Shown here piece after piece: positions 127 to 23,162 of a stretch of 33,364 nt of DNA. Every line of letters begins with the position of its first letter. Position 1 is the first letter of the stretch. The stretch is taken from positions 1 through 33,364 of IMG/VR virus record IMGVR_UViG_3300046005_001106; one strand, 5' to 3'. Under the pieces are notes generated by a model. The model searched no databases and was not told the DNA's origin. It saw nothing but the letters and a program-made list of their open reading frames with translations. The position numbers were made by a program, and so were the translations under genes. The stretch comes from a virus.

Positions 127-1303
127 GAATTAAGAATGTAATAGCTTGGTCAATAGTTAAAACGCCATCTTTTACCGCTTGCATAATATCTAATGAACTC
201 GAAATTTGCGCTCCGTTGTAACTTGCTTCTTTCTTAATTAAATCCTCACTTGCTACTGCTGTATCTGTAGGCACTCCTTCAACTTGTTTTACTTCTTCTT
301 CTCTTAAATTAACAAATTCCAAACCGCTTAACCCTTTCACAAACTCAATAGCATCTAAAATACTTTCTTGAATAGGTTGTATAACGTTTAAATAGGTTTC
401 ATTAAAAGCGGTTTCAATTTCTTCTGCGTTGGAACTGAATCCAGTACTTTTTGTAATTCCTAAAATAGCACCAGATACAACTTTATGAGCAATACATATT
501 TTATTCTGTGACTCTTGCGTTAAGAAGTCATATTGTTTGTGTGCGTCGCTTACTTGCAAAGCCGAAATTGTAGTTTCACTTTCTTTATTATCATTAAAAG
601 ATAATAAAAATTTACCCGCGTTTGTACTACCTGTTAATTGGTTACGTATTTGTCGACTAAATTTGTTTAAATCTTCCTCACTTTCAGGCTTGCCACCATT
701 CACGTTTATAACATGGCCGAAACTCATTCCGTTTTTAATATGGTTAACGTAGTAATTCGCCAATTCACTTTCTACTTCACAATATGGTAACGCTGAAATA
801 TAAGAAGGATTACCGAAATAGAATTGTCCTACTTGATTTGACTTAATAACAAAGACTTGATTTTCTGTTTTTTTACCAAATCCATAAGTCGGTATTTGTT
901 TAGGTGGGTATTTTTGTTGATTATCCCAATCAAAACAAAACCAATAAGATTTTATTTCTCCGTCTTCGGCTTTGTTTGGTAACAACTTATTCTTTTCAAT
1001 GTGGTAAAGATTACCTTTTGGAGTTACTTCGAAAGATGCTTCTCCAAACAAAACCATATCAAAACAAACCTTTCTTAAATCCGTTTTAGATATAAATTTT
1101 TGTTGGATGTTTAAACCTAATCCATAAATATAACGTGCGTATGAATCGATAATAGCTGAGTTTGTAGGACTTCCGTAATAGCTCGCTATAATATCTTTAT
1201 ACATTTGGTTATTTTCCCCATTCATAACAAAGTCTTTATTCGGACTTTCTTTGATTTCGGGTCTTACATATTCCTTTGCTAATTTTAATACTTCTATTTT
1301 CAT
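1..1303 (-). CDS. Portal protein, N-terminal 434 residues
   Basis: The frame opens at an ATG at 1303 (MKIEVLKLAKEYVRP) and stays open to base 1. It continues through the circular junction to the stop at 32685, giving about 617 residues. Residues near 45-70 contain YYGSPTNSAII followed by IYGLGLN, and the middle carries NPSYISALPYCEVE and SGAILGITKSTGFSS, in the manner of portals of Bacteroidota siphoviruses. A portal dodecamer forms the capsid vertex through which DNA is packaged. The start overlaps the stop of the upstream gene as ATGA, so it is translationally coupled. The identification rests on these motifs and on the neighbouring capsid and connector genes. Confidence 0.85.
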   Translation of the reverse strand, partial: MKIEVLKLAKEYVRPEIKESPNKDFVMNGENNQMYKDIIASYYGSPTNSAIIDSYARYIYGLGLNIQQKFISKTDLRKVCFDMVLFGEASFEVTPKGNLYHIEKNKLLPNKAEDGEIKSYWFCFDWDNQQKYPPKQIPTYGFGKKTENQVFVIKSNQVGQFYFGNPSYISALPYCEVESELANYYVNHIKNGMSFGHVINVNGGKPESEEDLNKFSRQIRNQLTGSTNAGKFLLSFNDNKESETTISALQVSDAHKQYDFLTQESQNKICIAHKVVSGAILGITKSTGFSSNAEEIETAFNETYLNVIQPIQESILDAIEFVKGLSGLEFVNLREEEVKQVEGVPTDTAVASEDLIKKEASYNGAQISSSLDIMQAVKDGVLTIDQAITFLIQMLQFEPAVAKALFSGNSASEITMSKEKHVCLAEKKNKKKSE

Positions 1304-1554
1304 ATTGCTTTCGCTTTGCTTCTGTATATTAATGTACTATTGTATGTTATTTCAAGCGTATACGTTCCATTTAAAACAAAATTATAATCAAATGAAGTGA
1401 TGCTATAACCATCTACTAACTCACATTCTAAACCTGTTAAAACGCTTTTAGTATTTGTAAGTTCGTGCCATAAAGTAAGTGTTACAATAGGCTCGAAAGT
1501 CCTATGTAAAAATCTTAAATTATGCGTTTCGCTTGAAGTAATAAAATAGTCCAT
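1300..1554 (-). CDS. Small structural protein, first gene of portal operon
   Basis: This 84-residue protein (MDYFITSSETHNLRF) alternates hydrophobic and polar residues as a beta-rich domain would. It has no membrane segment or catalytic motif. It lies between the tail tube gene and the portal, and its TGA overlaps the portal ATG. A hairpin terminator (1597-1626) separates it from the tail tube gene, and the octamer TACGTTAT lies 6 nt before its ATG, so it probably starts a new late transcription unit. I do not recognise the family. A minor virion or tail accessory role is inferred only from position. Confidence 0.75.
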   Translation of the reverse strand: MDYFITSSETHNLRFLHRTFEPIVTLTLWHELTNTKSVLTGLECELVDGYSITSFDYNFVLNGTYTLEITYNSTLIYRSKAKAI

Positions 1555-1560
1555 ACTTTA

Positions 1561-1568
1561 ATAACGTA
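1561..1568 (-). promoter_or_regulatory. TACGTTAT late-gene motif
   Basis: On the minus strand TACGTTAT is followed by 6 nt and the ATG at 1554, and preceded by CAAAGTAA and an A-tract. The same octamer at the same spacing precedes the genes starting at 11910 and 14500, with a two-base variant before 4199. A phage-sigma promoter element or a translation signal is inferred. Confidence 0.6.
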
Positions 1569-1594
1569 TTACTTTGTTTTTTTTACATAAAAAA

Positions 1595-1628
1595 AAAGCC
1601 TACTAAATTAATAGTAGGCTTTAAAAAA
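1595..1628 (-). terminator. Intrinsic terminator after tail tube gene
   Basis: The minus strand reads AGCCTACTA, a short AT loop, then TAGTAGGCT followed by a run of T. It lies just downstream of the tail tube stop at 1644 and upstream of the next unit. The plus strand has the same stem with a weaker T run, so termination could be bidirectional. Confidence 0.85.
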
Positions 1629-1643
1629 AAATGGAAGATAAAA

Positions 1644-2189
1644 TTAAACCTCTGGAGTTTCTCCGATGTATGAATTTTGAACCGTTGCTAATAACGCTGT
1701 TTTAGCAGTTGAACTTAAGAATGGTGCAAAGTCAGGGTCTTCTGCTGTGAACTCAAATGTAAATCCGTTTAAATCCCCTTTTGCAAGTCCTGTTACTGCA
1801 CTACCATTAGTTGCTTTTACTGAATTTTTATAACCCATCAATTTGATGTTTCCGTTATAATCTTCAACAAAAATAACTAATCTATTTCTCATCATTAATG
1901 ACAGCTCTTCTTGCGTTTCAGGGTCTAATATTGGTAAATTACCAACTAAAACCTGAGAAACGAATTTACTACCATTATCCCAATTTATATTAGGAGTTTC
2001 TGTTAATCCTTGCGTGTTACTTGAAAACTCATATTTAAAAGTTTCGTCTAACGTGCCTAAAGACGCCACAACTTGAGCAGTTGCAGTTATTCCATAGTCA
2101 GCATATAAACCAATAAATATATTTTTCACACCAGCAACCGCACCTAAACACGCTACTTTTTTTCCTTTTGTAATAAAATCACAACTCAT
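1644..2189 (-). CDS. Probable major tail tube protein
   Basis: This 181-residue protein (MSCDFITKGKKVACLG) resembles tail tube proteins of Bacteroidota siphophages. An N-terminal segment is followed by beta-rich sequence with a variable loop (YNGNIKLMGYKNSVKATNG) and ends in a region (TGLAKGDLNGFTFEFTA) similar in style to tube subunits, in which the last strands assemble the hexamer ring. It sits immediately downstream of the major capsid gene and is bracketed by two hairpin terminators, as expected for a highly expressed virion gene. The alternative is another abundant tail or decoration protein. Confidence 0.6.
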   Translation of the reverse strand: MSCDFITKGKKVACLGAVAGVKNIFIGLYADYGITATAQVVASLGTLDETFKYEFSSNTQGLTETPNINWDNGSKFVSQVLVGNLPILDPETQEELSLMMRNRLVIFVEDYNGNIKLMGYKNSVKATNGSAVTGLAKGDLNGFTFEFTAEDPDFAPFLSSTAKTALLATVQNSYIGETPEV

Positions 2190-2206
2190 ATTGTATATGT
2201 TTTTAA

Positions 2207-2230
2207 AAAGGCTCGAATTAACGAGCCTTT
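2207..2230 (-). terminator. Hairpin between capsid and tail tube genes
   Basis: A 9-bp perfect stem (AAAGGCTCG with CGAGCCTTT, 6-nt loop) lies 10 bases past the capsid stop, between it and the tail tube start at 2189. The T tail on the minus strand (CCTTTTTAAAAA) follows the stem in the direction leading into the tail tube gene, so it may cut expression partly or protect the capsid mRNA 3' end. Confidence 0.75.
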
Positions 2231-2239
2231 ATGTTAATA

Positions 2240-3151
2240 TTATGCTTCAGGAATTCTGTACCATACAATTTCAGGCGCATAAACGTAGATTACTCCAACG
2301 TTATAAACCATAGTACCTCTTACTTTACCAGTTAATAAACCGATAGCATCCTCGTCAACTACTTGAATTGAATTGTGGTCTTCTAAAGCACCTGTAACAA
2401 ATCCTAAATTTCCTGTTTCAGCGATTACAATAGTAGCTTCTGGTAAACCTCCCACTTCAACTAATCTATGTTTTCCAAATACTAATTCAGTATTAGCGTT
2501 TCCACCTAATCCGTTAGTAGTTCCTTTGTCGATTAAATAGAAGTTATACGCTTGTGCAACATCAGGCGAAACCATAACGTTTAAAGTTTTTCTTCTTAAT
2601 GCAACAGGAATAGCAGCAACCGCTTTTTCTAATTCAGCAATAACATTTGTTTTGTCGATAGCCTCTCCATCAACTGTGATAATATTTGTATCAGCAGCAA
2701 ATTGAGTTAAGAAACCATCATAACCATTTGTAGCGTCTACACCTTGCCAAATGTTGTCATCTGTATAAGATGCTTCGTTTGCTAATTTAGAAGCGATAAT
2801 TCCATCTAAAATTTCTTTAGGGAATACATCGTTAGCAGCACTTGCCCCCATTTCGTCAGCAGTCCAAGTAGCTCTAAAAGTTTCTTTACATAAATCCCAA
2901 TCATCTTTGAATTTTGTTGGAGTGATTGATTTCTCAGCTAAAGTAATTGAACCCGCTGGAGTGTGTCCGCAAGTGTACTCTCTTCTTCCATTTGTAGTTT
3001 CTAATTTTCTTAAAGAAAGTTTAGAGTTTACATTTGGATAAATTGTTACTAAATTGTTTTTTAACGTGTCCGCTTCTTTCCACGCTTTCAGGAATAAACC
3101 TCCTGCAACTTTACCATTGTAGTTTGAACCTACTGTTACTGTAGTAGCCAT
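2240..3151 (-). CDS. Major capsid protein (HK97-fold type)
   Basis: This 303-residue protein (MATTVTVGSNYNGKV) has the length of HK97-fold capsid subunits of Bacteroidota phages. Features include WQGVDATNGYDGF, a central helix-rich stretch (AELEKAVAAIPVALRRKTLN) and a C-terminal strand region (TGALEDHNSIQVVDEDAIG) like the P-domain. It lies 1 bp after the protease-scaffold gene, the classic protease-scaffold-capsid order. It would form the icosahedral shell. A hairpin follows the stop. Confidence 0.85.
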   Translation of the reverse strand: MATTVTVGSNYNGKVAGGLFLKAWKEADTLKNNLVTIYPNVNSKLSLRKLETTNGRREYTCGHTPAGSITLAEKSITPTKFKDDWDLCKETFRATWTADEMGASAANDVFPKEILDGIIASKLANEASYTDDNIWQGVDATNGYDGFLTQFAADTNIITVDGEAIDKTNVIAELEKAVAAIPVALRRKTLNVMVSPDVAQAYNFYLIDKGTTNGLGGNANTELVFGKHRLVEVGGLPEATIVIAETGNLGFVTGALEDHNSIQVVDEDAIGLLTGKVRGTMVYNVGVIYVYAPEIVWYRIPEA

Positions 3152-3152
3152 A

Positions 3153-4199
3153 TTAATTTTGTTTTTGTAATTCTAATAAAAATTTCTCTTGCAAGTTTTT
3201 AGGCTCTGCAACCTCTGTATGAATTGGAGCCGCTTTAGTCAAAATAACTTCCGCTTCTTCTTTTTTCATTTCAGTTTTGAAGTCCGCTAATTGTGCAGCT
3301 ACAGCTTTGGCAATTTCGCCTACATAAGCCTGCATAATTTCGTTTACTTTAGCTTCGACCGAGTCATCAGCCATTTCAACTTTTTCTTCTTCTTTAGCCA
3401 TTTCTTCTTCTACCTTTTCGGTAAGTTCTGAAATTTTACCTTCTGCAATAACCACTGTAAAACCTTCGATTTCGTAAGTGCCATCTGCAAAGGCTTCGGT
3501 CATTTCTTCATTAGCGAAAACCATTGTATCAACTGCCAAAGCATCGCCCTCAAAGAACATTGTTTGGTCGTCGATAGTCATTTGTTTTCCTAACTTAACC
3601 TGTGTTTGATTAAGAGAGGCAAAGCCCTCTTTAATCGCTGTTAAAATAGTTTCAATTGTCATATCTGTTTTTAAATTTACATTCTCTTCTAACTCAAAAG
3701 CACCATCAATTGATACGCCTTTGATTTCTCCCGCTTCTATTTTAGCCATAACCTCATCATCATCAACTCTAAAAATAGTAAACCACGTGCCAATAGGTTG
3801 ATTAAATCCTTTCATTACTGATTTATCGTGAACCTCATCATCTTTTATCCAGCTTTCAACAAAAGAAACACCATCTAATTTTAGATTAATGTCGTGTTCT
3901 AACGTGCTTTCATTTTGAAAACCTTGCTTTTGAAAGTTTTGTTGTGCTAATCTTATCGTTTCAGCTTCAAAAACTATATTAAAAGCATTGCCATTGCTGT
4001 CTAATCGTAGTATTTTTTGGTTTGGAATAAGTACAGGAGTCATAAACAAGCGTTTATCTTTGTCTATTTCTGCTAATTTTACTTCATATTCCTTTGACAT
4101 TTGCACAAAATACTCTTCTATTGCTGGGTCATTAACCAAACTAATAGCGTAAACGCCTTTGTTTTTATTGGGATTGAATTTTACTACATACGTTTCCAT
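3153..4199 (-). CDS. XkdF-like prohead protease fused to scaffold
   Basis: The 348-residue protein has two parts. Residues about 1-170 match the XkdF-type serine protease pattern: His102 in LEHDINL, then FVESWI, GFNQPIGTWF and the probable nucleophile Ser163 in GEIKGVSIDGAF. Residues about 175-345 are acidic and helical (repeated EEEMAKEEEK-type stretches), as in a scaffold domain. It should act inside the prohead, guiding capsid assembly and then removing the scaffold. It directly precedes the major capsid gene. The ATG at 4199 is preceded at 6 nt by TTCGTTAA, a variant of the late-gene motif. Confidence 0.88.
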   Translation of the reverse strand: METYVVKFNPNKNKGVYAISLVNDPAIEEYFVQMSKEYEVKLAEIDKDKRLFMTPVLIPNQKILRLDSNGNAFNIVFEAETIRLAQQNFQKQGFQNESTLEHDINLKLDGVSFVESWIKDDEVHDKSVMKGFNQPIGTWFTIFRVDDDEVMAKIEAGEIKGVSIDGAFELEENVNLKTDMTIETILTAIKEGFASLNQTQVKLGKQMTIDDQTMFFEGDALAVDTMVFANEEMTEAFADGTYEIEGFTVVIAEGKISELTEKVEEEMAKEEEKVEMADDSVEAKVNEIMQAYVGEIAKAVAAQLADFKTEMKKEEAEVILTKAAPIHTEVAEPKNLQEKFLLELQKQN

Positions 4200-4205
4200 A
4201 ATTAT

Positions 4206-4213
4206 TTAACGAA
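4206..4213 (-). promoter_or_regulatory. Variant late-gene motif TTCGTTAA
   Basis: On the minus strand TTCGTTAA precedes the protease ATG by 6 nt, the same spacing as TACGTTAT before 1554, 11910 and 14500. It differs from them at two bases. It lies back to back with the rightward lipoprotein promoter. Confidence 0.45.
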
Positions 4214-4219
4214 AAAAAA

Positions 4220-4250
4220 TTGTTATTTTACATATTTTATTTTACATTTG
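4220..4250 (+). promoter_or_regulatory. Bacteroidota-type promoter for lipoprotein cassette
   Basis: TTG at 4220-4222 and TACATTTG at 4243-4250 are separated by 20 nt, matching the -33/-7 pattern of the Bacteroidota primary sigma factor. It fires rightward, against the surrounding late genes. Confidence 0.8.
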
Positions 4251-4254
4251 TACT

Positions 4255-4314
4255 TCGCTACAACAATAAGATATTTAATCCCTGACATTTGTAGCGAGTG
4301 TTGGGGATTTTTTT
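4255..4314 (+). ncRNA. Pseudoknot leader with terminator-like hairpin
   Basis: TCGCTACAA (4255-4263) is perfectly complementary to TTGTAGCGA (4289-4297). AATCCCT (4277-4283) pairs with GGGGATT (4303-4309) and is followed by seven T. The order of the four arms is that of an H-type pseudoknot, with the 5' arm pairing inside the loop of the terminator-like hairpin. It lies between the promoter and the lipoprotein start, so attenuation is likely. Confidence 0.65.
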
Positions 4315-4326
4315 AAACAATTTATT

Positions 4327-4686
4327 ATGAAAAAAGTATTATTAATTTTAGGATTGTCTTTGACTTTATTTTCTTGTTATGATTTTGAAAGAGAACAAGC
4401 AGAAAAAGACGCAACAAGTCAAGGTAAACAAATTTTATTAAAAGCAGAAAGTTCTAAAAAGGCAAAGATTGAACAAGCAAAAGCAGATTTAGAAAGTGCA
4501 AAGTTAGAAGCAGAAACAAGGCTTATAGAAGCAGAAGCAAAAGCTAAATCAATTAATGCAGTATCTAAAGCATTGAAAGAAAATCCAGAGTATTTAAAAT
4601 ACTTAATGATTCAAGGCATGAACAATAGTAAAAATAAAATTTATATTCCTACAGAAGCTAATTTACCAATTTTAGAAGCTAAATAA
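4327..4686 (+). CDS. Lipoprotein moron with SPFH-like C-terminus
   Basis: This 119-residue protein starts MKKVLLILGLSLTLFSC, a lipoprotein signal with Cys17 as acylation site. The middle (about 25-80) is a charged Ala/Lys/Glu coiled coil. The end, SINAVSKALKENPEYLKYLM then IYIPTEANLPILEAK, resembles the tail of band-7/prohibitin-like proteins. It is the only long gene on the plus strand inside the late region and has its own promoter, leader and terminator, the hallmark of a moron. It is likely expressed in the host envelope apart from the lytic genes. Superinfection exclusion or host modification is an inference; nothing shows it directly. Confidence 0.85.
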   Translation: MKKVLLILGLSLTLFSCYDFEREQAEKDATSQGKQILLKAESSKKAKIEQAKADLESAKLEAETRLIEAEAKAKSINAVSKALKENPEYLKYLMIQGMNNSKNKIYIPTEANLPILEAK

Positions 4687-4687
4687 A

Positions 4688-4786
4688 ATGAAATTTACTT
4701 TATATATTTTAGTAGGTATTCCTTTATTAATTGTTTTTTATTTAGGAATAATTCGTTTAATAAAATATTTTTTTAGTAATAAATAA
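4688..4786 (+). CDS. Mini membrane protein after lipoprotein
   Basis: A 32-residue frame begins 1 nt after the lipoprotein stop. It is one hydrophobic helix (TLYILVGIPLLIVFYLG) with basic residues after it. Close spacing and shared terminator suggest co-expression with the lipoprotein at the envelope. The family is not recognised, and a short helix of this kind in AT-rich DNA could also arise by chance. Confidence 0.5.
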   Translation: MKFTLYILVGIPLLIVFYLGIIRLIKYFFSNK

Positions 4787-4791
4787 TTTAT

Positions 4792-4868
4792 TACATTTGT
4801 ATTTTCCATCTTTTTAAATTTTAAGTTATTTTTCATTAAAGCCACTTACCTGAGAGAGTGGCTTTTTT
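4792..4868 (+). ncRNA. Possible small RNA ending at terminator
   Basis: A second TACATTTG (4792-4799) stands about 40 nt ahead of the terminator at 4839-4868 with no open frame between. Transcription from it would give a short RNA of about 60-65 nt. No clear -33 element is seen, so this is tentative. Confidence 0.3.
4839..4868 (+). terminator. Intrinsic terminator of lipoprotein cassette
   Basis: AAGCCACT pairs with AGTGGCTT (8 bp, 10-nt loop), followed by six T. It ends the rightward cassette just before the 3' end of the leftward tape measure gene (4870). The minus strand has only three T after the stem, so leftward readthrough into the capsid genes is plausible. Confidence 0.9.
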
Positions 4869-4869
4869 G

Positions 4870-6954
4870 TTATCCTAAACTTGCGTTACTTACTATATTC
4901 CTATCTAAACTTTGTTGAGTAGTTACATTATTCGCTACTACATAAGCCTGTATAGGTTGTTGTGCTCCTAAAGTATTGGCTATTTGATTAACTCCCGCAT
5001 TACCTACTACATTGAAACTCGGTGCAGCACTTCCACCACCAACAACAGAACTCGCACTTATTGAAGGAGCCGAACCTCCACCGCCACCACCAGGAACTTT
5101 AACAGAAACTATTTTTTTAACAGTTGCCAAACCTGTTGCAATTGCTCCAGCAGCAGCAACTCCACCCGCAACAATTCCAGCAGGTCCTGGAATAACCGCA
5201 ACCATTCCCTTAAATGCCGACATTGAAGATTGTAAAGTGTCAACGGTTGTAGCAGCAATAGCCATGGCTTTACCAGCAACCGTATTTTTTCCTAATAATT
5301 CAGATGCGGTTGCAAGTGTTTGACCGATAGCAGCCACCATTTTAGCTTTAGCTTGTGCTTCTAATTCGTCAATCTTTATTCTTGCGTCTGTATATTGCTG
5401 TTTTAAAGTTGTTCTTTGCTCTTCCGTTAAAAGTTCATCATTAAGTAAGGCTGTCTCTCTTTCCATTAAAATAGATCTTTGCTCTTCAAAAGATAATTTG
5501 TCAAACTCTTTTTTAAGCTCTAAATCCTTAATTAGTTTTTCTTGGTCTTTTGCCTTTTTATCTTCGGCTTCCTTTTCGTCTTTAGCGTCTTGCTCTTTTT
5601 TACGATTACGCTCTTGCTCGTCAAATTTTAAATTAATATCGTTTTGCTCGTTTAATATTTGGAGTTCAAGCTCTGCAGTATCTTTTCCGTATTTCTTTAA
5701 AAGTGCTAATTTCGCATCGTTTTTAATTTTGTTATCATTAAGCTCTTTTTCACGTTCAGTAAGTACGCTATCGTCGTTTGCCTTAACAGCCTCTTGTTGA
5801 ATTTTTTTAATTTCTTCAAGGTCTTTCTTCTGTTGGTCTCTTAGCTCTTGACGTGCTTTGTCTCTTTCTTCTTTTCTACGCTTTTCATTTTCTTTAGCAC
5901 TTGAAGTTTCAGCAGTTTGTATTTCAACTAAATGACGATTTTGTATGTCTTTCTTTTCGTCAAGTGCTTTTCTTACATCTTGATTTTGTTTATTAAATTG
6001 CTTAATACTTTCGCTTGCTGTTTCTTGTTGCTTTTTAATAACTTCTTCATCAGCTCCAGCAGCTTTTAAACTTGCAAGCGTGTTTAAATTCTTTTGATAT
6101 GTATTCTCTGCAATTGCTCTTTGTGATTTCTCGTAAGCTATTTTTTCATCAATTAATTTTAATTCTAATTTACGAATAGCCTCGGCACTCATTCCGCTTG
6201 CTTTTGCCATGGCAAGTTCTTGCTTTTGCTTTTTATCGAATTGCTCCGAATTTCTTTCAAGTGTTTTAGTCTGACTTTCTAAAGCAACTTTATTTTGTTC
6301 AACCGCTGCGGAATTTGCTTTTGCTGCTTCTGAATTATCTATAAAATATTTTGTTAAAGCTACACCCGCTGCAATAAGAGCTACAACTGCAGCGATAATT
6401 GCGCCGATTGGATTCGCCGCTTGTGCTGCATTCCATAACCACTGACCCGCTGTAATTGCTTTTTGAACTATTGTATATTGTTGTGCAACCGCTGCTAAAC
6501 GTTTGAAGTCTTTAGCACTATCCGCAATTCCTGACAAACTTTGTGAAAGTGCCATAGCGGATTGAACTTTTAAAAGTGTTTCTTGTGCAGCCTCTCCCTC
6601 AACTCCTAACAAACCAAGTGCTGCTTGATAACCCTGCACTGCATTCGCACCCGCAGCGATAGCACCTGTAGCAGCTTGAAACTTTGCTCCTGGGTCAAAC
6701 AATTTAGACGTTTCTTGCGCTTCTTGAATTTGGTCTTTTAAAGTTGCTACTTTTTTAGCAGCATTTAAAGCAGCCTCTGAATAGTCCCCGAATTCCTTTT
6801 GAGCGTTTACCAATTCGATAGTAGCTTCTTTAATTTGAGTTTTTAAAGATGCAGTAGTTTTGTCAGTTTGAGCAACCGCTTTGTTTAAGTTGTCAAGTCC
6901 ACCTAACGCTTTAAGTTCGTCAACATCAATTTCTATTACCTTAGTTATCGCCAT
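4870..6954 (-). CDS. Tape measure protein
   Basis: This 694-residue protein sets tail length and passes through the tail lumen. Residues 1-60 and about 215-545 are long charged coiled coils (many KDLEEIKKIQQEA-type heptads). A hydrophobic stretch lies near 175-200 (NPIGAIIAAVVALIAAGVAL) and an Ala/Gly-rich segment near 555-610, followed by a glycine run (PGGGGGGSAPS). This layout is typical of siphovirus tape measures, and the length fits a tail of roughly 100 nm by the usual 1.5 angstrom per residue rule. It follows a 43-residue gene and the large tail protein. Its stop abuts the lipoprotein terminator. Confidence 0.85.
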   Translation of the reverse strand: MAITKVIEIDVDELKALGGLDNLNKAVAQTDKTTASLKTQIKEATIELVNAQKEFGDYSEAALNAAKKVATLKDQIQEAQETSKLFDPGAKFQAATGAIAAGANAVQGYQAALGLLGVEGEAAQETLLKVQSAMALSQSLSGIADSAKDFKRLAAVAQQYTIVQKAITAGQWLWNAAQAANPIGAIIAAVVALIAAGVALTKYFIDNSEAAKANSAAVEQNKVALESQTKTLERNSEQFDKKQKQELAMAKASGMSAEAIRKLELKLIDEKIAYEKSQRAIAENTYQKNLNTLASLKAAGADEEVIKKQQETASESIKQFNKQNQDVRKALDEKKDIQNRHLVEIQTAETSSAKENEKRRKEERDKARQELRDQQKKDLEEIKKIQQEAVKANDDSVLTEREKELNDNKIKNDAKLALLKKYGKDTAELELQILNEQNDINLKFDEQERNRKKEQDAKDEKEAEDKKAKDQEKLIKDLELKKEFDKLSFEEQRSILMERETALLNDELLTEEQRTTLKQQYTDARIKIDELEAQAKAKMVAAIGQTLATASELLGKNTVAGKAMAIAATTVDTLQSSMSAFKGMVAVIPGPAGIVAGGVAAAGAIATGLATVKKIVSVKVPGGGGGGSAPSISASSVVGGGSAAPSFNVVGNAGVNQIANTLGAQQPIQAYVVANNVTTQQSLDRNIVSNASLG

Positions 6955-7076
6955 TTCATATAGTCTTTAAGTTCTTTAAAATTTTCAGGTAGTTTGTATT
7001 TACCTTTTGCGAAATCAATCGTTTCACATTCTCCTTTTGGTGCTATCTTCAATAGCTCGATAATTAGTTTAAGCAT
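6945..7076 (-). CDS. 43-residue protein between tail genes
   Basis: This frame, starting MLKLIIELLKIAPKGE and ending KDYMKWR, overlaps the upstream tail gene by 8 nt and the tape measure start by 10 nt. Such overlaps on both sides suggest a real, coupled gene. It is partly amphipathic and contains no motif I know. A small tail assembly factor is possible from position only. Confidence 0.55.
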   Translation of the reverse strand: MLKLIIELLKIAPKGECETIDFAKGKYKLPENFKELKDYMKWR

Positions 7077-9252
7077 TTTGTTCAATTATTATTACATCAT
7101 TTTGGTTAGAAATTATACTTGCAATTTTTGGTAATCCACTAACATTATCATTTGGTTTAACGGTTACCCTATCATCGTAACTTAAAACTTCAAATATTAT
7201 ATTATCATCATCACTTAAAACACTCCAAGTTAATGGCTCTTTTGAAGTTGTAAAAAAAGTTAATAAAGCCGAAGTACTTTCTATAATTCTTAAACCGCTA
7301 TTATCAAAATTTATAGTTCTAAAATCTTGTATCAATTCAAAATCACTTTCAAAAGTTGTTAAGTCAGTTGTGTATTGATTAATCACATAACGCTTATCTC
7401 GTATCACTATCCTATCGTTTAACTTTAAATCTAACAATTCATTGTAAGGCAAGCGCATTTTTACTTTTACTAACCTTGATTTTAAAGAATAAAGATTAGT
7501 TAAGTAAGCTAAATAATAATTATTAAATAAAGACCTATTAATAGGGTTCAAATAATAACTTGAAATTTCTACACCCCAATTTAAAGTGTTTATTTGTCCG
7601 TTTGCAATATTGTCTTGTCCGAAATTTGCAATAGTATTCAAGTTTACTGTTGTAGTTCCATTATTAAAATAAACTGTTTGAGCATCATTTTTAATAAAGT
7701 AAAGAATTACAGGCTTTGGAATATATTTTTGTAAATCAGTTTTTAAAGAATAAGCAACTTGTAAATTGGTTCCTGTAAATTTACTAAACAATATATTTTC
7801 AAAAGGTAATTTAATAGTGTACTCACTTCCATCGTTATTAAAAGTTGAACTTAAACTTCCATATTCACGCAAATTTGTATCTCCAAAGTTTCTATTTAAA
7901 ATACTTTCAGATTTTTCATATTCAAAATTTATTTTCTTATATGGTTTTATTCTGTTATAATCAAAATCAGTAACACAATATTCTGAATAGTCTTTTATAT
8001 TTCCTAAAAAATACCAATTCTCTAACTGCTCTATTGTGAAATTAACACCATCCGTACTAAATGCTGTTAAGTTAAACATCTTTAATATTCCGCTAAAGAA
8101 ATCACTTACTTTAATGTCAGGTGCTAAAGCGGTTAAATCCAAATTACTTGATAAAGTTCCACCGCCACTAACCGATAAACTATTTTGCCAAATATTTGGA
8201 CTTCCAGGTTCTGAATCAAAATAGAAAGTATTTAAAGTATAAGTATAAGTAGTGCTTTCAGATGTTTGCAAATAAAATTCATAAACACCAGTACCTATAC
8301 TTTGGTCAACTCTAAAACTAAATGAAGTATTAACTCCTTGAATTGAAGTATATTCTGCACCATCTTTAAAAACTTTTAAATTATAATTTGTAGATGAAGA
8401 AAAAAAGATTGATAATTCAGCATAAGCGTTAATATAAAAAGGATCTACAACAAAAGTAATAGCTGTTAATTTATCATTAGTTGAATTAATATCAAAAAAA
8501 CTATCATTTTGATTAGACGTAAAATTTATCTTTTGTGGCTGTGTATAATTTTGAAATACATCTTTATTTTTGAACCAACAATAAGCGTCTGTAAACAATT
8601 CATTTGATAAAAAAGAACCATCAAAAGTAACTGCGTATTTTGTAGCTATTGCATCAAATATTCTCTTAACTTTTACTGCTGGGAATAATTCTGTGTAAAC
8701 AATTGCATGAGCTGAATTGCCTATATTTTGAGAGCCAGATCCATATTGCCAAACTCTATTCGAACTTATTAAAGGAAATGCAACATTGTTACCATTAAAA
8801 GATTGAATTGCGCTTTGTACATTTGCACCTGTGTATTGAATTGTGTAATTATTTAAAGTTTCAACATCTTTTAATTTGTCATCTCCGAACTTATCAGTTA
8901 AACTTTTTAAATCCCCATAAAATGTAATCTTATAATCTTCAACTCTATTTTCTTTTATAGTTGCACTTTCTAATTGCCACTTTCCAACTCTAAAAGTACG
9001 TGTGTCTATTTCAATATACCCATCGTATCTAATGCGTTGGTCAAATCCATTGTCAATACTATTGTCATACCAATATTTAAAGATTGCGTTATTATTCGCA
9101 CTCGCAGGAATAGTAAAAGATTGAGAGTAATCTGTAAAAACTTTTGATATATCGTTAATGTTTTGAATACTTGAAGTAACTGAAATCTTTTCATCTTCAA
9201 ATAATTCAATGCGTTTCGCTATTCCATCAACATAAATGTAAAGTGCTACCAT
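7069..9252 (-). CDS. Large tail or baseplate protein
   Basis: This 727-residue protein starts MVALYIYVDGIAKRIELF, and its N-terminal region contains SIQNINDISKVFTDYSQSF and FTIPASANNNAIFKYWY. This recurrent N-terminus is known to me from large minor tail proteins of Bacteroidota phages. The rest is beta-rich with many Asn, Thr and Tyr and no enzymatic motif. It is encoded just upstream of the tape measure, after a second tail protein whose stop overlaps its ATG (TAATG). A distal tail or baseplate hub role is inferred. Confidence 0.6.
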   Translation of the reverse strand: MVALYIYVDGIAKRIELFEDEKISVTSSIQNINDISKVFTDYSQSFTIPASANNNAIFKYWYDNSIDNGFDQRIRYDGYIEIDTRTFRVGKWQLESATIKENRVEDYKITFYGDLKSLTDKFGDDKLKDVETLNNYTIQYTGANVQSAIQSFNGNNVAFPLISSNRVWQYGSGSQNIGNSAHAIVYTELFPAVKVKRIFDAIATKYAVTFDGSFLSNELFTDAYCWFKNKDVFQNYTQPQKINFTSNQNDSFFDINSTNDKLTAITFVVDPFYINAYAELSIFFSSSTNYNLKVFKDGAEYTSIQGVNTSFSFRVDQSIGTGVYEFYLQTSESTTYTYTLNTFYFDSEPGSPNIWQNSLSVSGGGTLSSNLDLTALAPDIKVSDFFSGILKMFNLTAFSTDGVNFTIEQLENWYFLGNIKDYSEYCVTDFDYNRIKPYKKINFEYEKSESILNRNFGDTNLREYGSLSSTFNNDGSEYTIKLPFENILFSKFTGTNLQVAYSLKTDLQKYIPKPVILYFIKNDAQTVYFNNGTTTVNLNTIANFGQDNIANGQINTLNWGVEISSYYLNPINRSLFNNYYLAYLTNLYSLKSRLVKVKMRLPYNELLDLKLNDRIVIRDKRYVINQYTTDLTTFESDFELIQDFRTINFDNSGLRIIESTSALLTFFTTSKEPLTWSVLSDDDNIIFEVLSYDDRVTVKPNDNVSGLPKIASIISNQNDVIIIEQNA

Positions 9253-10223
9253 TATATCACATCGTTTATTAGTCCGTAGTTGTATTCAAACTCAACTTCG
9301 TAGTTTATATTCTTATCTTTCAAATGCGTTTTAATATCAGCACTTTGACTTTTCACAATTGTTGGTTTATTATCTAATAAAACAACTTGACTTAAAAGTA
9401 AATCTTGAATTAACTCGCTGTAATTCTCATCCACCCACCCTGTATTACATTTTATCTTTTGCGTACCTTGAAAATTAAAACGTTGTTTCTGACCTTGTAA
9501 TGTATTGTAATTTATAGATGAAGGCAATAGGTTATAATCTTTAGAAGTTACATCTATAGCTTGCTGATTTGCTTTAAAAAATGTTAAGTATTGCCAACCT
9601 CCAAACCGATTAATAAAAGTGCAAATTACAGGCGTATAAATAGGCTCGCATAATTGTTCAGCGTAAAAATTAAATCCTTCTACATTTTCATTCGCTTGCA
9701 ATATTGGAAATTTCCAAATAGCTGGCTCGGTCACATCAACATAATCGTAAGAAGTATCATAATATTCAACTTCTAAAAAGAAACTTACGTAATTAGTTTC
9801 AAAATCTTTTACGTAGTTTTTAATATCTGTATTGAAAAGAGGGACTATTGTGTCAGTTGTGCTTTGATTGTAGCCATCTAAATAGTTTGTATATCCGTTT
9901 AGACAAACAAATGTTTCATCGTCTAACTCAACATCATCTGAATATCGTACTACTTTCATATAACACCATGTATTTACACTTTCTTCTGTTGGTTCAGTAG
10001 GTACAACAGGTGCAATTGGTTTTATAAATTCCTTTGCTAAATTAGAAATATTCCATTCTAACTTGGTTTGTGTTGGACTTGGTATTGGTTTACTAAATGT
10101 ATAATTTGGAGTTGTTGGTTCAGTTGTTCCTTTATTCCATAAAAACACCTCAATCTTTGCAGAAGTTTGACCGACCTCATTAACCTCGATAAAATACGGA
10201 CTTCTAATAAATATCTTTTTCAT
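9252..10223 (-). CDS. Tail structural protein
   Basis: This 323-residue protein (MKKIFIRSPYFIEVNE) is beta-rich, with fibronectin- or Ig-like strand spacing near residues 1-75 (QTSAKIEVFLWNKGTTEP) and aromatic-rich sequence later. It has no catalytic site or membrane helix. The start overlaps the stop of the 180-residue neighbour as ATGA, and the stop overlaps the next ATG. It is part of the tail operon; baseplate or distal tail protein is likely but unproven. Confidence 0.6.
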   Translation of the reverse strand: MKKIFIRSPYFIEVNEVGQTSAKIEVFLWNKGTTEPTTPNYTFSKPIPSPTQTKLEWNISNLAKEFIKPIAPVVPTEPTEESVNTWCYMKVVRYSDDVELDDETFVCLNGYTNYLDGYNQSTTDTIVPLFNTDIKNYVKDFETNYVSFFLEVEYYDTSYDYVDVTEPAIWKFPILQANENVEGFNFYAEQLCEPIYTPVICTFINRFGGWQYLTFFKANQQAIDVTSKDYNLLPSSINYNTLQGQKQRFNFQGTQKIKCNTGWVDENYSELIQDLLLSQVVLLDNKPTIVKSQSADIKTHLKDKNINYEVEFEYNYGLINDVI

Positions 10224-10762
10224 TTCTTAAATGTTGTTTCTTTTAACAATTTTTCTACATCCAAACCATACGCTTCAATCAATTCATCTGGCAAACGTTC
10301 GAATCCAACCTCAAAAGGTTTACTAAAAAATCGAGTTGCTTTAATTCCTTTTTGATATATGCTTCGAGTAATTAAAAACGCTGTTTGTTCATAACTTAAA
10401 AATCTTCCGCTCTCATTATCTTTAAATTGAAAACGTCTGTCTTTTACCCATTGATTAATTCCTTCCGTTAGACCGCCTTTCTTTCCCGTTCCAGTTCCAA
10501 ATCTAAAACCTCCCTGCTTAAAAGTACTTAATGAATTACCACTGCTTTTACCTTTTACTCCGCTATCTTGATAAGCTCCATACTCCTCCATTTCAAAATA
10601 GATACCTATACTATTTTTTGAAGTAGTAGCCTCTCCTTTTATGCTATCATATAGCCTTCTTTTAACATTTTTATCTTTTCGTGTTAAATTTGAACGTGAC
10701 TGACTTACGACATATTTCGTAAACTTTGAAAGTACTCTATTTGTTTCCGTTCTATCTAACAT
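10220..10762 (-). CDS. Tail completion / neck protein (gp10-like)
   Basis: This 180-residue basic protein (MLDRTETNRVLSKFTK) contains MEEYGAYQDSGVKGK. The pattern of Tyr-Gly, Gln-Asp and Gly-Val-x-Gly recalls HK97 gp10-type head-tail joining proteins in Bacteroidota phages. A Gly/Lys-rich loop follows (FGTGTGKKGG), then a helical C-terminus. It overlaps its neighbours on both sides, next to a probable tail terminator. It would help join tail to head. Confidence 0.6.
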   Translation of the reverse strand: MLDRTETNRVLSKFTKYVVSQSRSNLTRKDKNVKRRLYDSIKGEATTSKNSIGIYFEMEEYGAYQDSGVKGKSSGNSLSTFKQGGFRFGTGTGKKGGLTEGINQWVKDRRFQFKDNESGRFLSYEQTAFLITRSIYQKGIKATRFFSKPFEVGFERLPDELIEAYGLDVEKLLKETTFKK

Positions 10763-11199
10763 AACCTATTAGGAAAATTCAAAGTAATCAAAACAGAATA
10801 CCCATCTAATCCGTTAGCAAATGCGTTATCTATTAAGATAGGGCTTGAACTAGTTACAAAAGAAATGTTTTCATCATTTTGCAAACGTTCAGTTTTATTT
10901 ATAATACTTCTTAATACGTCATAAGCTAAACTCCAATTGTCCCAACGATTATCATTTCCGTTAAACTTATTAGTTATAGCTCTTTTATTCGTGTCACGTT
11001 GATCAACTACCGTTACTTCAAAAGTTACGTCGTTAGAATTAAAATCGTTTGAATTTACCCTAACGTTTGCCATAGGGTACAAATCCTTTTTGTTGAAATC
11101 TAACTCATCTTCATTTGCTGAAAATATAGTCTTAATACGTTCATCCTCGTTTAAGTGTCCGACTATTAAATTAAGTCCTGCTAAAATAACGTTTCGCAT
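10756..11199 (-). CDS. Probable tail terminator protein
   Basis: This 147-residue protein (MRNVILAGLNLIVGHL) has the layout of small alpha/beta tail terminator subunits: an N-terminal helix, then strands (YPMANVRVNS, DVTFEVTVVDQRD), a helix (WSLAYDVLRSII) and a final strand (GYSVLITLNFPN). It lies between the tail chaperone and the gp10-like protein, the expected place. Its start lies inside the predicted frameshift extension of the chaperone gene, a 29-nt overlap. The family assignment is by architecture, not by a catalytic motif. Confidence 0.5.
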   Translation of the reverse strand: MRNVILAGLNLIVGHLNEDERIKTIFSANEDELDFNKKDLYPMANVRVNSNDFNSNDVTFEVTVVDQRDTNKRAITNKFNGNDNRWDNWSLAYDVLRSIINKTERLQNDENISFVTSSSPILIDNAFANGLDGYSVLITLNFPNRLC

Positions 11200-11910
11200 T
11201 TTCTTGTTTAAATTTTTCTTCCTGTGCCTTATCTTTTAAATAATCGATATGCGTAAGAATTTCATTAATATTTAGTTGTGATACAACTTCTTTAAATCGG
11301 AGCCTATCTCCTCCAGCGAGTTCATCAATTGTGATATACCAACCCCATTTTTCTCCAAAAGAGCTACTTCCGAACTCGTTAGATTTTTTAGTGTATATTG
11401 AGGGATAGTTGTCAATAAGTCGATTGTTAAACTCGAAAAAAAAACCTTTGCACCTATGTAGGCACTTGCAGGGGCTTTACGCATTATCTCGGCATACTTA
11501 TCGCTACCTTTGTATTTTTCAATTGTGTATAGTTTGTTTTTCTCTCTTTTAATCGGTCGATATAAAACAGCCATAGTTTTAAATATATCTACATTTAAAT
11601 ACATTTCAGCATCTAAAAATTCTTCTCCCGGCATAGTGTCAAGATTTGGAATAAAACCAAACTTTATACCGTCAATTGTAAAATGTTCAATCGGTGGTTT
11701 TGAGTTTAATAAATTCAAAACGCTATCAGCTATTTCGTTTATATCGCTCATTGAAAACTTTACTACTTTGTCAAGTTGCAATTCGCAAACTATTGACACG
11801 ATAGTCATTTTTAAAAGCGTATCATTATCAATTAGCTTAACAGCTTCCGTAATTTTATGAAGTTGTAAACAAGTAATTTCTTTTAGTGATGTTGGTATAG
11901 TAACTTCCAT
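11171..11910 (-). CDS. Chaperone -1 frameshift fusion product
   Basis: The -1 frame overlapping the chaperone gene is open from 11476 to its TAA at 11171 with no ATG of its own. It encodes conserved-looking sequence such as SSFGEKWGWYITIDELAGGD and LNINEILTHIDYLKDK. Candidate slip sites on the minus strand are T9 at 11444-11436 (frame GTT TTT TTT TCG), A AAA AAT at 11389-11383, and T TTA AAG at 11296-11290. A -1 slip at any of them gives a 246-residue product, like lambda gpGT. The upstream T9 site would preserve the whole -1 domain, so I favour it, but the site is not settled by sequence alone. Confidence 0.65.
11272..11910 (-). CDS. Tail assembly chaperone, frame-0 product
   Basis: This 212-residue protein starts at the ATG at 11910 (MEVTIPTSLKEITCLQ). 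It has an N-terminal helical domain, the central segment IDGIKFGFIPNLDTMPGEEF, and FKTMAVLYRPIKREKNKLY, a pattern I associate with tail chaperones of Bacteroidota phages. In frame 0 it ends in LMNSLEEIGSDLKKLYHN. Three possible slip sites lie in its last third, and the -1 frame is open and protein-like from 11476 to 11171. It would hold the tape measure during tail assembly. TACGTTAT stands 6 nt before the ATG, and TerL is just upstream. Confidence 0.7.
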   Translation of the reverse strand: MEVTIPTSLKEITCLQLHKITEAVKLIDNDTLLKMTIVSIVCELQLDKVVKFSMSDINEIADSVLNLLNSKPPIEHFTIDGIKFGFIPNLDTMPGEEFLDAEMYLNVDIFKTMAVLYRPIKREKNKLYTIEKYKGSDKYAEIMRKAPASAYIGAKVFFSSLTIDLLTTIPQYTLKNLTSSEVALLEKNGVGISQLMNSLEEIGSDLKKLYHN

Positions 11911-11916
11911 ATTATT

Positions 11917-11924
11917 ATAACGTA
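11917..11924 (-). promoter_or_regulatory. TACGTTAT late-gene motif
   Basis: TACGTTAT, then AATAAT, then the ATG of the chaperone gene. Upstream lie CAAATAAA and an A-tract, as at 1561 and 14507. The gap between TerL and the chaperone is only 35 bp and holds nothing else. Confidence 0.6.
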
Positions 11925-11945
11925 TTTATTTGATTTTTTTTTTAA

Positions 11946-13109
11946 TTATCCGAACATTAATTTCCCTTTTGACTTTCCGAGTCCTATCGTTTCCATTTCA
12001 TGGTATCTGAAACCATCAATTGCATGGTTAAAATCGTCAATAGGTTTGTTTAATTTCGCACCCGTTTTTTTGTCTTTGTCCCAAGCATATTTTCGTAGCT
12101 CTTTAATTAGATTAGTACTTTTACTTGTAACTAAATAGTCCTGCTCCTGCATAACTTGAATACCGAAGTTAATACTATCAGCTCCTTTTGTAACTCCGAA
12201 CGCCCTCACTCCTAACTTTGTAAGCTCCGCTATTGATTTTGGTTCCGCACTATCACAATAGACTGGCATTTTAGTAGGTATCATTTTAGCAATTTGTGAG
12301 TTGCTTAATTCCTTTTGATAGCATATTTCGTTTACTATTCTTTTGTCATTCCATTTGTAAACCTCAACTATTGCTGTCGGGTCGTTTGAATATCCAAAGT
12401 CAAGACCGTAACCAAGTAAACGTGCATCGTTTGGTATTGTATCAATAGTTTGCCAATTATTAAAAATAACTCCTTCTAAATTACCTATTAAACCAAGTCC
12501 GTAAACATTGTACCAATTTTCCCAATAGGCAGAAGTCTTTGCTTTTTCTTTTGCTTTTAAAATAAAGTTAAGAGCTGATTCAGGGCAAGCCTCGTTATCT
12601 AAATAATTAACAATTATAAAATCAACATCGTTATCATCTTTCAACTCGGTGTGAAACCAAAACTCATTGACAGGATTCCAATCTAAATAAACGCCTTTCT
12701 TTGTACGTGATGCCAATTCAGTATAAGCGTGAAAGGTCATGTTATTTGATTCATTCATATACAAATAGTCACGTCTTGCACCTCTTAACTTTGAATCGTT
12801 ATCAGCACTGAAAAATTCTATTTGTGAACCATTTGCGAAAGTATATTTAAAATCGGTTGCGTTCCATCGGCTATCAACAAAACGCCCCGTTTCAATCATT
12901 ATCTTTTTAAAGTCCTTCATTGCACCACGTTTGAGATGTGGTATAGATTCCGCTACAACTGATATTTCAGTAAGTTTATTTTTAGTAGCTATATCAATTA
13001 AAACAGGAAGAACACCAAAGGTCTTGCCCGCTGATGTTCCTCCTTGTATTCCTTTGACAAATTTTGTCAAATTTAATATCTTATTTATTACCGTTGTTCT
13101 TACAAACAT
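11946..13109 (-). CDS. terL: Terminase large subunit
   Basis: This 387-residue packaging motor is the ATPase and nuclease that fills the capsid through the portal. Walker A is GGTSAGKT at 23-30; the Walker B-like segment is YLYMNE at about 115-120. The C-terminal nuclease shows acidic residues in GLDFGYSNDPTA (near 235), CDSAEP (near 290) and DDFNHAIDGFRY (near 360). It is shorter than many TerL proteins but has both domains, as in the Terminase_3 group. The ATG overlaps the TerS stop by one base. Confidence 0.93.
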   Translation of the reverse strand: MFVRTTVINKILNLTKFVKGIQGGTSAGKTFGVLPVLIDIATKNKLTEISVVAESIPHLKRGAMKDFKKIMIETGRFVDSRWNATDFKYTFANGSQIEFFSADNDSKLRGARRDYLYMNESNNMTFHAYTELASRTKKGVYLDWNPVNEFWFHTELKDDNDVDFIIVNYLDNEACPESALNFILKAKEKAKTSAYWENWYNVYGLGLIGNLEGVIFNNWQTIDTIPNDARLLGYGLDFGYSNDPTAIVEVYKWNDKRIVNEICYQKELSNSQIAKMIPTKMPVYCDSAEPKSIAELTKLGVRAFGVTKGADSINFGIQVMQEQDYLVTSKSTNLIKELRKYAWDKDKKTGAKLNKPIDDFNHAIDGFRYHEMETIGLGKSKGKLMFG

Positions 13110-13516
13110 TACTTATCTGGGAATAGTGGTTGTTCAGTTACAATTGTATTTTCTTGTCTTTCAACTAAGTTATTTAAACGCTGTGTAATAGATGGATTGT
13201 AGATTCCAGCCATACCGCCTTCTATTTGGTCACTACGAACTTCTTTTCTAATATGTGAACAGATAGTTGAATATTCAGAGTACTTATTATCACTATTAGC
13301 AAAATAGTTGCTTAAATCGCTTATAATTCCTTTTTTAAATAACCACACTTCAAAGCCATCAATTGTTAAAGGTCTTTCCTTAGTTCTATAAACCATATCG
13401 GCATCTTTTCCTACATAGTCTTGAACTTGAATAGGATTGCTTTTAGTTTCTTTTTTATATTCTTCAAAGTACTCTAAAAGTTTTTCAGGTGTTTCTATGT
13501 ATTTTCGCTTTCCCAT
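13109..13516 (-). CDS. terS: Terminase small subunit (gp3-like)
   Basis: This 135-residue protein starts MGKRKYIETPEKLLEYFEEY. It contains GFEVWLFKKGI, then YSTICSHIRKEVRSDQIEGG and the end YNPSITQRLNNLVERQE, the signature order of gp3-like DNA-packaging small subunits in Bacteroidota phages. It should bind phage DNA and recruit TerL. It begins inside the 3' end of the Cys-rich gene (22-nt overlap) and ends at the TerL ATG. Confidence 0.85.
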   Translation of the reverse strand: MGKRKYIETPEKLLEYFEEYKKETKSNPIQVQDYVGKDADMVYRTKERPLTIDGFEVWLFKKGIISDLSNYFANSDNKYSEYSTICSHIRKEVRSDQIEGGMAGIYNPSITQRLNNLVERQENTIVTEQPLFPDK

Positions 13517-13833
13517 AATCTTTTTAAATCTTTCATGTAGTTATTTTGATAAGTAGAACCACAACTTTTGCAAGGTGCAGTAGTAACATTAAATAAGCGC
13601 ATCCAAATATCCTCACAATTTGCAATATCTTCACCTTTTCCTGATGGGATAGGTAAACCTTTATACCAACTAAAAACATCGTTTAAAAATATCATATCTT
13701 CTTCGGTTGGCTTTTGTGCTTTTTTGAAAGGGAATAGTCTATTTAATTTGCTTTGCCTTTTCTGACAATTATCGCATTGCTCTATTCCTAAGGCATCAGT
13801 TACAACTTTGACTGCATCTCCAAGTCCTTGCAT
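13495..13833 (-). CDS. Zinc-site protein upstream of terminase
   Basis: This 112-residue protein has two cysteine pairs, CDNCQ near residue 20 and CKSCG near residue 90, suggesting one zinc site joined across the chain. The middle contains FLNDVFSWYKGLPIPSG. It lies between the sigma factor (34-nt overlap) and TerS (22-nt overlap). I recall such proteins beside terminases in Flavobacterium phages but know no function. A packaging or late-transcription accessory role is only a guess. Confidence 0.7.
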   Translation of the reverse strand: MQGLGDAVKVVTDALGIEQCDNCQKRQSKLNRLFPFKKAQKPTEEDMIFLNDVFSWYKGLPIPSGKGEDIANCEDIWMRLFNVTTAPCKSCGSTYQNNYMKDLKRLWESENT

Positions 13834-14282
13834 ATTTTTAATTTTATTCGTTGAAATCGTGTGTATATAGTTCGGTAAGGTATCCCTGTTTCACGTGATA
13901 ATTTCGAAAGGTTTGCACCATCAATTTCTGCAATAATTTCGTTTTTATCATTTGTAATCTTTCTACCAAAGTAAGCGTAGTATAATTGCTTTTCAACATT
14001 TGAAAGTTTGTTTAAATTAATTCTTTGCTCTTGGTAATCTTCATTTGATATTTCAAAAACGCTAAAGTCATCGATTGGGATTTCTTTTGTATTTCTGATT
14101 TTATTAATGTAGATTGAACGCATTACGATATAAATATAACCAAAATCTATTTCGTGAAATTGTTTACCTGTTTCGTAAAGTTTAATGTACGTGTCTTGTA
14201 AAAGGTCGTCGGAGTTATTATGATCAAATTTCTTTGCCATTGATAATAAATCTTTATGATACTTTACAAGCTCGTTTAACAT
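13800..14282 (-). CDS. Phage sigma-70-family factor
   Basis: This 160-residue protein has the two minimal sigma domains. Region 2 is at about 22-65 with DDLLQDTYIKLYE at 25-37, and region 4 is at about 95-150 with the helix-turn-helix LSKLSRETGIPYRTIYTRF. It lacks regions 1.1 and 3, like ECF-size factors. It would direct host RNA polymerase to phage promoters. It follows the gene at 14500, which carries TACGTTAT before its ATG, so the factor may drive its own operon as well as the blocks at 11910, 4199 and 1554. No anti-sigma partner is seen. Confidence 0.82.
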   Translation of the reverse strand: MLNELVKYHKDLLSMAKKFDHNNSDDLLQDTYIKLYETGKQFHEIDFGYIYIVMRSIYINKIRNTKEIPIDDFSVFEISNEDYQEQRINLNKLSNVEKQLYYAYFGRKITNDKNEIIAEIDGANLSKLSRETGIPYRTIYTRFQRIKLKICKDLEMQSKL

Positions 14283-14500
14283 TAATCTTTTTTAGAGCGA
14301 CCTCTTTTTTTAATAACTTTTTCTACCTCAACTTCTAAATCTAATTGTTCAGGATTTGCTTCAATTAAAACTTCTAAAGCTCCTTTAAGTGCTTTGTTGA
14401 TTTCTTTGATGCGTTCAGATGACGCTTCAAATGTTTGTCCTGGTTTATATTGTAAACCTGAATCTTTATCTTTAAAAGATATTTTTACTGTTGCTTTCAT
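14282..14500 (-). CDS. Small basic-tailed protein heading sigma operon
   Basis: This 72-residue protein starts MKATVKISFKDKDSGLQYKP. It has short beta strands then an acidic helix and a basic tail (EKVIKKRGRSKKD). Similar short 'F.D...G..Y..G..F' proteins occur beside head-tail genes in many phages, but no role is assigned. Its stop overlaps the sigma factor ATG (TAATG). It has both an attenuator-like leader with a TAnnTTTG promoter (14541-14606) and a TACGTTAT motif at 14507. Confidence 0.7.
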   Translation of the reverse strand: MKATVKISFKDKDSGLQYKPGQTFEASSERIKEINKALKGALEVLIEANPEQLDLEVEVEKVIKKRGRSKKD

Positions 14501-14506
14501 ATTAGT

Positions 14507-14514
14507 ATAACGTA
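14507..14514 (-). promoter_or_regulatory. TACGTTAT late-gene motif (sigma operon)
   Basis: TACGTTAT, then ACTAAT, then the ATG at 14500. It is preceded by CAAAAAT and an A-tract. The spacing is identical to the sites at 1561 and 11917. Confidence 0.6.
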
Positions 14515-14540
14515 ATTTTTGTATTTTTTTCTAAAATAAA

Positions 14541-23129: not shown

Positions 23130-23162
23130 TGTAAAATTTTTTACGTTATTAAGGTTAAAAAT

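Follow-up and report, generated by a model that had tools for sequence, protein, structure and literature searches.

The late genes of a large and mostly uncultured group of phages, related to the phages of flavobacteria, are very likely (probability of about 0.82) transcribed from sigma-dependent late promoters that give leaderless mRNAs (0-2 nt of leader), although no 5' end has been mapped and no binding of the sigma factor to DNA has been shown. The sequences themselves establish that a two-part motif stands in a fixed place, that it is conserved and linked to a sigma gene, that its variants are phage-specific and coherent, and that terminators lie close upstream; that the sigma factor binds the motif, that transcription starts (+1) on the A of the ATG, and that translation is leaderless, is inferred.

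The window, meaning the whole stretch of DNA that was analysed, is the entire 33,364-base IMG/VR contig IMGVR_UViG_3300046005_001106. Its portal gene is cut across both contig ends (minus strand; N-terminal part at 2-1303, C-terminal part at 32685-33359), and judging from this split the record, though classed as linear, appears to be circularly permuted. The features on which the argument rests are as follows.

14525-14534, minus strand: -35-like A-rich region, an A-tract, at -34 to -25 of the ATG and at the position of the second information peak
14507-14514, minus strand: -10-like element TACGTTAT before the ATG at 14500 of the gene heading the sigma operon, with GTT at -11 to -9 of the ATG
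14282-14500, minus strand: 72-aa gene heading the sigma operon, weak Arc-like/phrog_933 match
13800-14282, minus strand: ECF-like sigma factor of 160 aa, regions 2 and 4
13109-13516, minus strand: terminase small subunit (terS)
11946-13109, minus strand: terminase large subunit (terL)
11935-11944, minus strand: -35-like A-rich region, at -34 to -25
11917-11924, minus strand: -10-like element TACGTTAT before the ATG at 11910 of A2, the gene after terL; conserved in the 5' regions of A2 homologs
11272-11910, minus strand: A2 gene (phrog_32199), first gene after terL, predicted leaderless
4252-4299: hairpin between the divergent plus-strand gene at 4327-4686 and the putative 4199 promoter
4224-4233, minus strand: -35-like region ATGTAAAATA, at -34 to -25
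4206-4213, minus strand: -10-like element TTCGTTAA, 6 nt before the ATG at 4199 of the XkdF-like protease and capsid block
3153-4199, minus strand: XkdF-like serine protease gene, preceding the capsid gene, predicted leaderless
1589-1622, minus strand: intrinsic terminator with an 11-bp stem and U-tract, ending 34 nt before the 1554 ATG (-15.4 kcal/mol, z -5.6)
1579-1588, minus strand: -35-like region ATGTAAAAAA, at -34 to -25 and immediately 3' of the terminator
1561-1568, minus strand: -10-like element TACGTTAT before the ATG at 1554, portal block
1300-1554, minus strand: 84-aa gene before the portal gene, predicted leaderless

The gene at 4327-4686 is the lone plus-strand gene within the minus-strand late region, and elsewhere in the window an ORF at 20799-22985 (minus strand) encodes an SNF2/DEAD-like helicase fused to an N6/N4 DNA methyltransferase.

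An earlier note, made from the sequence of the window alone, had claimed that a motif stands at a fixed 6 nt before the ATGs at 14500, 11910 and 1554, with a variant before 4199, and that all four genes head late blocks (sigma operon, tail, capsid and portal); the spacing held exactly, and so did the late-block heading. The exact TACGTTAT occurs in four copies, of which the three on the minus strand are each exactly 6 nt before an ATG, where 0.05 such arrangements (TACGTTAT-N6-ATG) are expected under a third-order Markov model of the window; for the looser TWCGTTAW-N6-ATG, four were seen against 0.18 expected under the same model. The fourth TACGTTAT, at 23142-23149 (plus strand), is not followed by an ATG; on the other strand, the same stretch is upstream of a small HTH-like ORF (minus strand, start at 23128). 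Only the genes that head blocks have the motif, which is absent at the internal late genes of the window; behind the 14500 site, for example, the block comprises the 72-aa gene, the sigma gene, terS and terL, and the late motif precedes the 72-aa gene in the window and its close relatives.

The claim that the motif differs from the host TAnnTTTG also held. The 100 nt upstream of each of the four late sites contain no such box (the Bacteroidota sigma-A -7 box); it stands instead before early genes, at 19452, 20277, 23128 and 25827, with 20-63 nt to the ATG. The earlier note had further pointed to a CAAA about 8 nt before the three exact sites, which is indeed present (7-8 nt upstream) but failed as the second promoter element and was rejected, since it is not conserved in relatives outside the clade and the conserved second element sits further up. 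The core is accordingly corrected to (C)GTT at -11 to -9 plus an A-rich/ACAA box at approximately -34 to -26, with phage-specific variants.

This two-part structure emerged from a set of 35 related viral contigs, retrieved by sigma and A2 searches of viral contigs (98% down to ~25% identity), together with the cultured Nonlabens phages P12024L/S. A2 homologs with 33-50% identity carry, at the same place and directly before the ATG, TTCGTTGTATAGTT, TACGTTTATAAGAT, TACGTTATATAAAT, TTTGTTATATAATT and TCAGTTATATAAGT. Information content over 35 dereplicated upstream regions peaks at -30 to -26 and at -14 to -4, plus a T at -1, and before the late genes of the relatives the motif reads as an A-rich/ACAA box near -34 to -26 and (C)GTT at -11 to -9, ending in a T that abuts the ATG. 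ACAA itself lies within -34 to -24 at 42 of 81 sites, mostly at -33 to -29 and with GTT at -11, while in the clade of the window the -35 box is merely an A-tract.

A 31-nt position weight matrix (PWM), trained on the upstream regions of the A2 gene only, was scanned over the 35 whole contigs at a threshold of at least 12 bits. An ATG followed directly in 62 of 153 matches, with no other single offset exceeding 9, whereas a reversed-sequence control gave 83 matches and none with an ATG. The 62 include the A2 (training) sites by construction; in a 9-bit list, the 86 matches at ORF starts divide into 24 A2 sites and 62 non-A2 sites. The non-A2 matches that abut an ATG precede the XkdF-like protease and the small pre-portal gene, besides some others that look like late genes, and at least two of the three late head genes have TT at -10/-9 and T at -1 in 28 of the 36 records with assignable genes. 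High-scoring matches without ATG in contigs G032, G033 and G040 were set aside, the frame there being readable as coding sequence. In a second sample of 42 further dereplicated contigs, for which the protease served as query, 20 of 42 protease starts had both GTT at -11 and T at -1, vs. 25 of 312 other ORF starts; the PWM matched 17 of these other starts, some of them at A2 homologs or at genes whose starts resemble that of the pre-portal gene.

The search upstream of late genes in related phages, proposed in the earlier note as a check, thus found the motif at the same late genes. Relatives having a homologous sigma factor without the motif would have counted against the idea, and this is not the general picture, although some contigs miss the motif at one gene class (9 of 36 A2 starts and 4 of 33 protease starts). 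Contig G018 barely fits, and G035/037 and G039/041 have shifted or altered cores. Among named phages, close nucleotide relatives have only the primase/NinG region in common with the window, tblastn with the window sigma found no named phage, and a search of genome contigs with the A2 alignment returned no prophage relatives.

Box variants are common to the genes of one phage and differ among phages, which is the expectation for one trans-acting factor per phage; two clades, for example, have CGTTAT and CAGTTAT as their respective cores. Between different genes of one phage, the identity of the -10 core averaged 7.88 of 10 positions, compared to 5.78 between phages, and that of the -35 region 5.94 compared to 4.59 (0 of 5000 permutations in both cases). 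The spacer between the boxes had no significant within-phage coherence (p 0.075), and such covariation of both boxes without the spacer is typical of a protein that recognizes the two. An upstream control region was slightly coherent within genomes (p 0.027), implying that base composition contributes a little.

The obvious candidate for such a reader is the sigma-like protein. A sigma HMM detected an ORF in 32 of the 35 contigs, the remaining three being cut short with little sequence upstream of A2, as well as a match in the motif-bearing P12024L/S. FpV9 and TCUEAP1, which share the terminase with this group, had no sigma in the HMM search and no motif in the gene starts inspected. One contig, L167 (G043), encodes two sigma-like ORFs (7920-8426 and 10470-10958, minus strand). 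The window protein matches ECF sigma profiles (SigE and SigW, best E 3.5e-5), its PDB profile matches are ECF sigmas, and the top matches of its predicted fold are sigma-E/H/L with probabilities of 0.97-1.0, while Foldseek gave no match reaching E 0.001. Pfam Sigma70_r2 was matched by 16 of 18 family members (best 1.4e-10); the window protein scores 21.4 bits, below the curated cut-off of 24, and P12024L_35 carries PF04542 in the annotation of its depositors. In the model of the 160-aa protein, helices within residues 2-65 are joined by a low-confidence linker (66-79) to C-terminal HTH-like helices, and the SigW match covers profile positions 9-145. The region 2 fold and sequence expected of an ECF (group 4) sigma are therefore met, as is the layout of a region 4 HTH and linker without regions 1 and 3, for which the evidence is weaker than for region 2. 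That the protein binds core RNA polymerase and initiates at its cognate promoter is inferred, in the absence of sigma-DNA binding data.

The position of the transcription start was estimated from the geometry of the motif and its surroundings. In P12024L, AAAACA[AC]-N13..16-CGTTA occurs in eight copies over both strands, of which seven end 6-7 nt before an ATG, and these sites take the form AAAACA-N17-GTT-N8-ATG, with N17 at six of seven sites and N16 at one. At 22090, the distance from motif to ATG is 1 nt shorter while the spacing between the elements is unchanged, and the ATG is likewise shifted by 1 nt at the G039/G041 sites. The open complex of Mycobacterium tuberculosis (Mtb) sigma-H has GGAACA, an optimal spacer of 17 bp and GTT with T-10 and T-9, with +1 nine bases after the GTT (PMC6411747). 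The P12024L motif superposes on this geometry, which by analogy would place +1 on the A of the ATG. The features of ECF-type promoters (AAC/ACA and CGT/GTT boxes across a rigid spacer of 15-17 bp) are met, with the window clade being only A-rich at -35.

Intrinsic terminators offer a second line of evidence: when one mismatch and G-T pairs are allowed, 17 of 64 site clusters have one whose T-run stops 31-42 nt short of the ATG (mode 32). Among comparison genes, terminators were found at 39 of 998, at scattered distances and with only four of the 39 at 31-42 nt; a strict definition leaves 6 of 64 sites vs. 10 of 998. Two of the 17 are weak enough to be in doubt, namely those at 14500 and at the G002 homolog of this site. 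A sigma promoter needs the whole stretch from terminator to ATG, and the start can hence hardly lie more than a few bases upstream of the ATG. In addition, T occupies -1 at 53 of 54 sites (38% in other genes), while -2 to -6 vary. From geometry and terminator distance, without transcript data, we infer a 5' end at or within a few nucleotides of the AUG, be it on the A itself or one or two bases off.

In the mechanism that we propose, the motif would be the core of a late promoter for host RNA polymerase carrying the phage ECF-like sigma (13800-14282), whose region 4 would read the A-rich/ACAA box at approximately -34 to -26 and whose region 2 would read the (C)GTT box at -11 to -9. The fixed distance to the ATG would put +1 on the first base of the start codon, for a leader of 0-2 nt, making the late mRNA of each block leaderless at its first gene. 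Since the sigma gene of the window itself sits behind one such promoter, early read-through followed by self-amplification is a likely, albeit inferred, course of events. The suggestion of the earlier note that the motif is a -10 element giving leaderless mRNAs is supported by same-gene conservation in divergent phages, two-element coherence within genomes, co-occurrence with the ECF-like sigma, terminator spacing, T at -1 and superposition on ECF promoters, and is still an inference with no 5' end mapped.

The alternative that survives best, which we nevertheless regard as unlikely, keeps the promoter of the same sigma but gives it a short true leader (3-6 nt) or a +1 inside the ATG, i.e., near-leaderless mRNAs. 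In its favor, starts at phage sigma promoters scatter over a few bases (in phiEco32, 6-8 bp downstream of the element; PMC8948821), and displacements of 1 nt do occur, in G039/G041 and at one site of P12024L. Against it stand the nearly invariant T-1, next to variable -2 to -6 positions, and the sigma-H geometry that points to the A of the ATG.

It is very unlikely that the motif is instead a translation-initiation signal within a longer 5' leader, by which late genes would attract ribosomes strongly in a phylum that lacks Shine-Dalgarno pairing. A fixed distance to the ATG is as expected of a ribosome signal, and Flavobacterium ribosomes do sense the sequence ahead of the AUG, where A at -3 is a known translation determinant (PMC6847099). 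However, A at -3 is not enriched (46% at sites vs. 55% elsewhere), the motif marks block-heading and not internal late genes, and the terminators leave scant space for a separate promoter. Moreover, the second element lies at sigma-promoter distance, covariation of both elements per phage is not expected from a shared host ribosome, and P12024L 22090 keeps the element-to-element spacing while its ATG distance shortens.

Even less probable is an operator for another phage regulator, e.g., the 72-aa protein, acting on a nearby host-type promoter. Any DNA-binding protein could account for conservation at specific sites and coherence within genomes, and the 72-aa gene has its weak Arc-like match, but there is no host-type TAnnTTTG near the four genes, the space from terminator to ATG is tight, the motif is without dyad symmetry, and the spacing of its two elements is that of ECF promoters. 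A continuous promoter of a phage single-subunit RNA polymerase, which a conserved block directly before the start would resemble, is the least likely of these readings in view of the two separate boxes and the presence of a sigma gene instead, and PF00940 had no match in 15 records (a weak search, as control genomes gave none either).

Late promoters of Bacteroidota phages are poorly known, and the motif would constitute a concrete, genome-readable late promoter with its likely sigma factor. For the cultured P12024L/S (host Persicivirga/Nonlabens sp. IMCC12024), the prediction names seven start sites with single-base precision, with ATGs at 179, 3031, 5412, 22090, 24771, 26011 and 27612 of JQ823123. 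If the reading is true, an entire late program is set off by leaderless translation in a phylum that does not initiate by Shine-Dalgarno pairing, and pairs of sigma and promoter that covary would be a resource for orthogonal expression in Bacteroidota. A bolder interpretation, which we consider likely, is that in a widespread group of relatives of flavobacterial phages the position of the sigma-dependent late promoters is hard-wired to the start codon, each late transcription unit thus beginning with a leaderless mRNA. Sigma, boxes and ATG would then evolve together, and late translation would have a start mode of its own in hosts that themselves rarely use leaderless mRNAs.

Phages that encode small sigma factors and have late promoters for them are known; for sigma-dependent late promoters whose position is tied to the start codon throughout a broad group of phages, the literature searched offered no precedent. 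The papers searched (most subscription papers were outside the search) describe neither a leaderless late promoter in Bacteroidetes phages nor a flavobacterial phage sigma. Similar in function are phiEco32 gp36 and phage 7-11 gp47, small phage-encoded sigmas that direct host RNA polymerase to late genes, the 7-11 promoter being bipartite (GTAAtg-16-aCTA) and +1 lying 6-9 bp from the element in these systems (PMC8948821). Their promoter sequences and host phylum differ, the gp36-like tAATGTAtA is not met here, where (C)GTT and an upstream box take its place, and a leaderless layout fixed to the start codon is not described in the relevant sections of that paper. In sequence, the motif resembles mycobacterial and actinobacterial ECF promoters of the sigma-H/sigma-R type ((GGA)ACA-N17-GTT, T-10/T-9, rigid spacer; PMC6411747), whose spacing P12024L matches base for base, although the phage sigma is far diverged, the host is in Bacteroidota, the -35 box is rich in A and T, and the predicted +1 falls on the start codon. 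Nearer to the host, the SM6 motif of Flavobacterium psychrophilum represents host ECF promoters with a CGT box (PMC9723704), but it drives cellular genes, and host mRNAs mostly have a leader; only 5.5% of mapped mRNAs in this species are leaderless, with a median leader of 24 nt (PMC9723704), and this rarity in Flavobacterium itself speaks against our leaderless reading. Late start sites placed at TATG have a precedent in the jumbo phage phiKZ (as cited in the AR9 paper, PMC5312081), which relies on its own multisubunit RNA polymerase and a 4-base motif, whereas here an ECF-like sigma would recognize two boxes.
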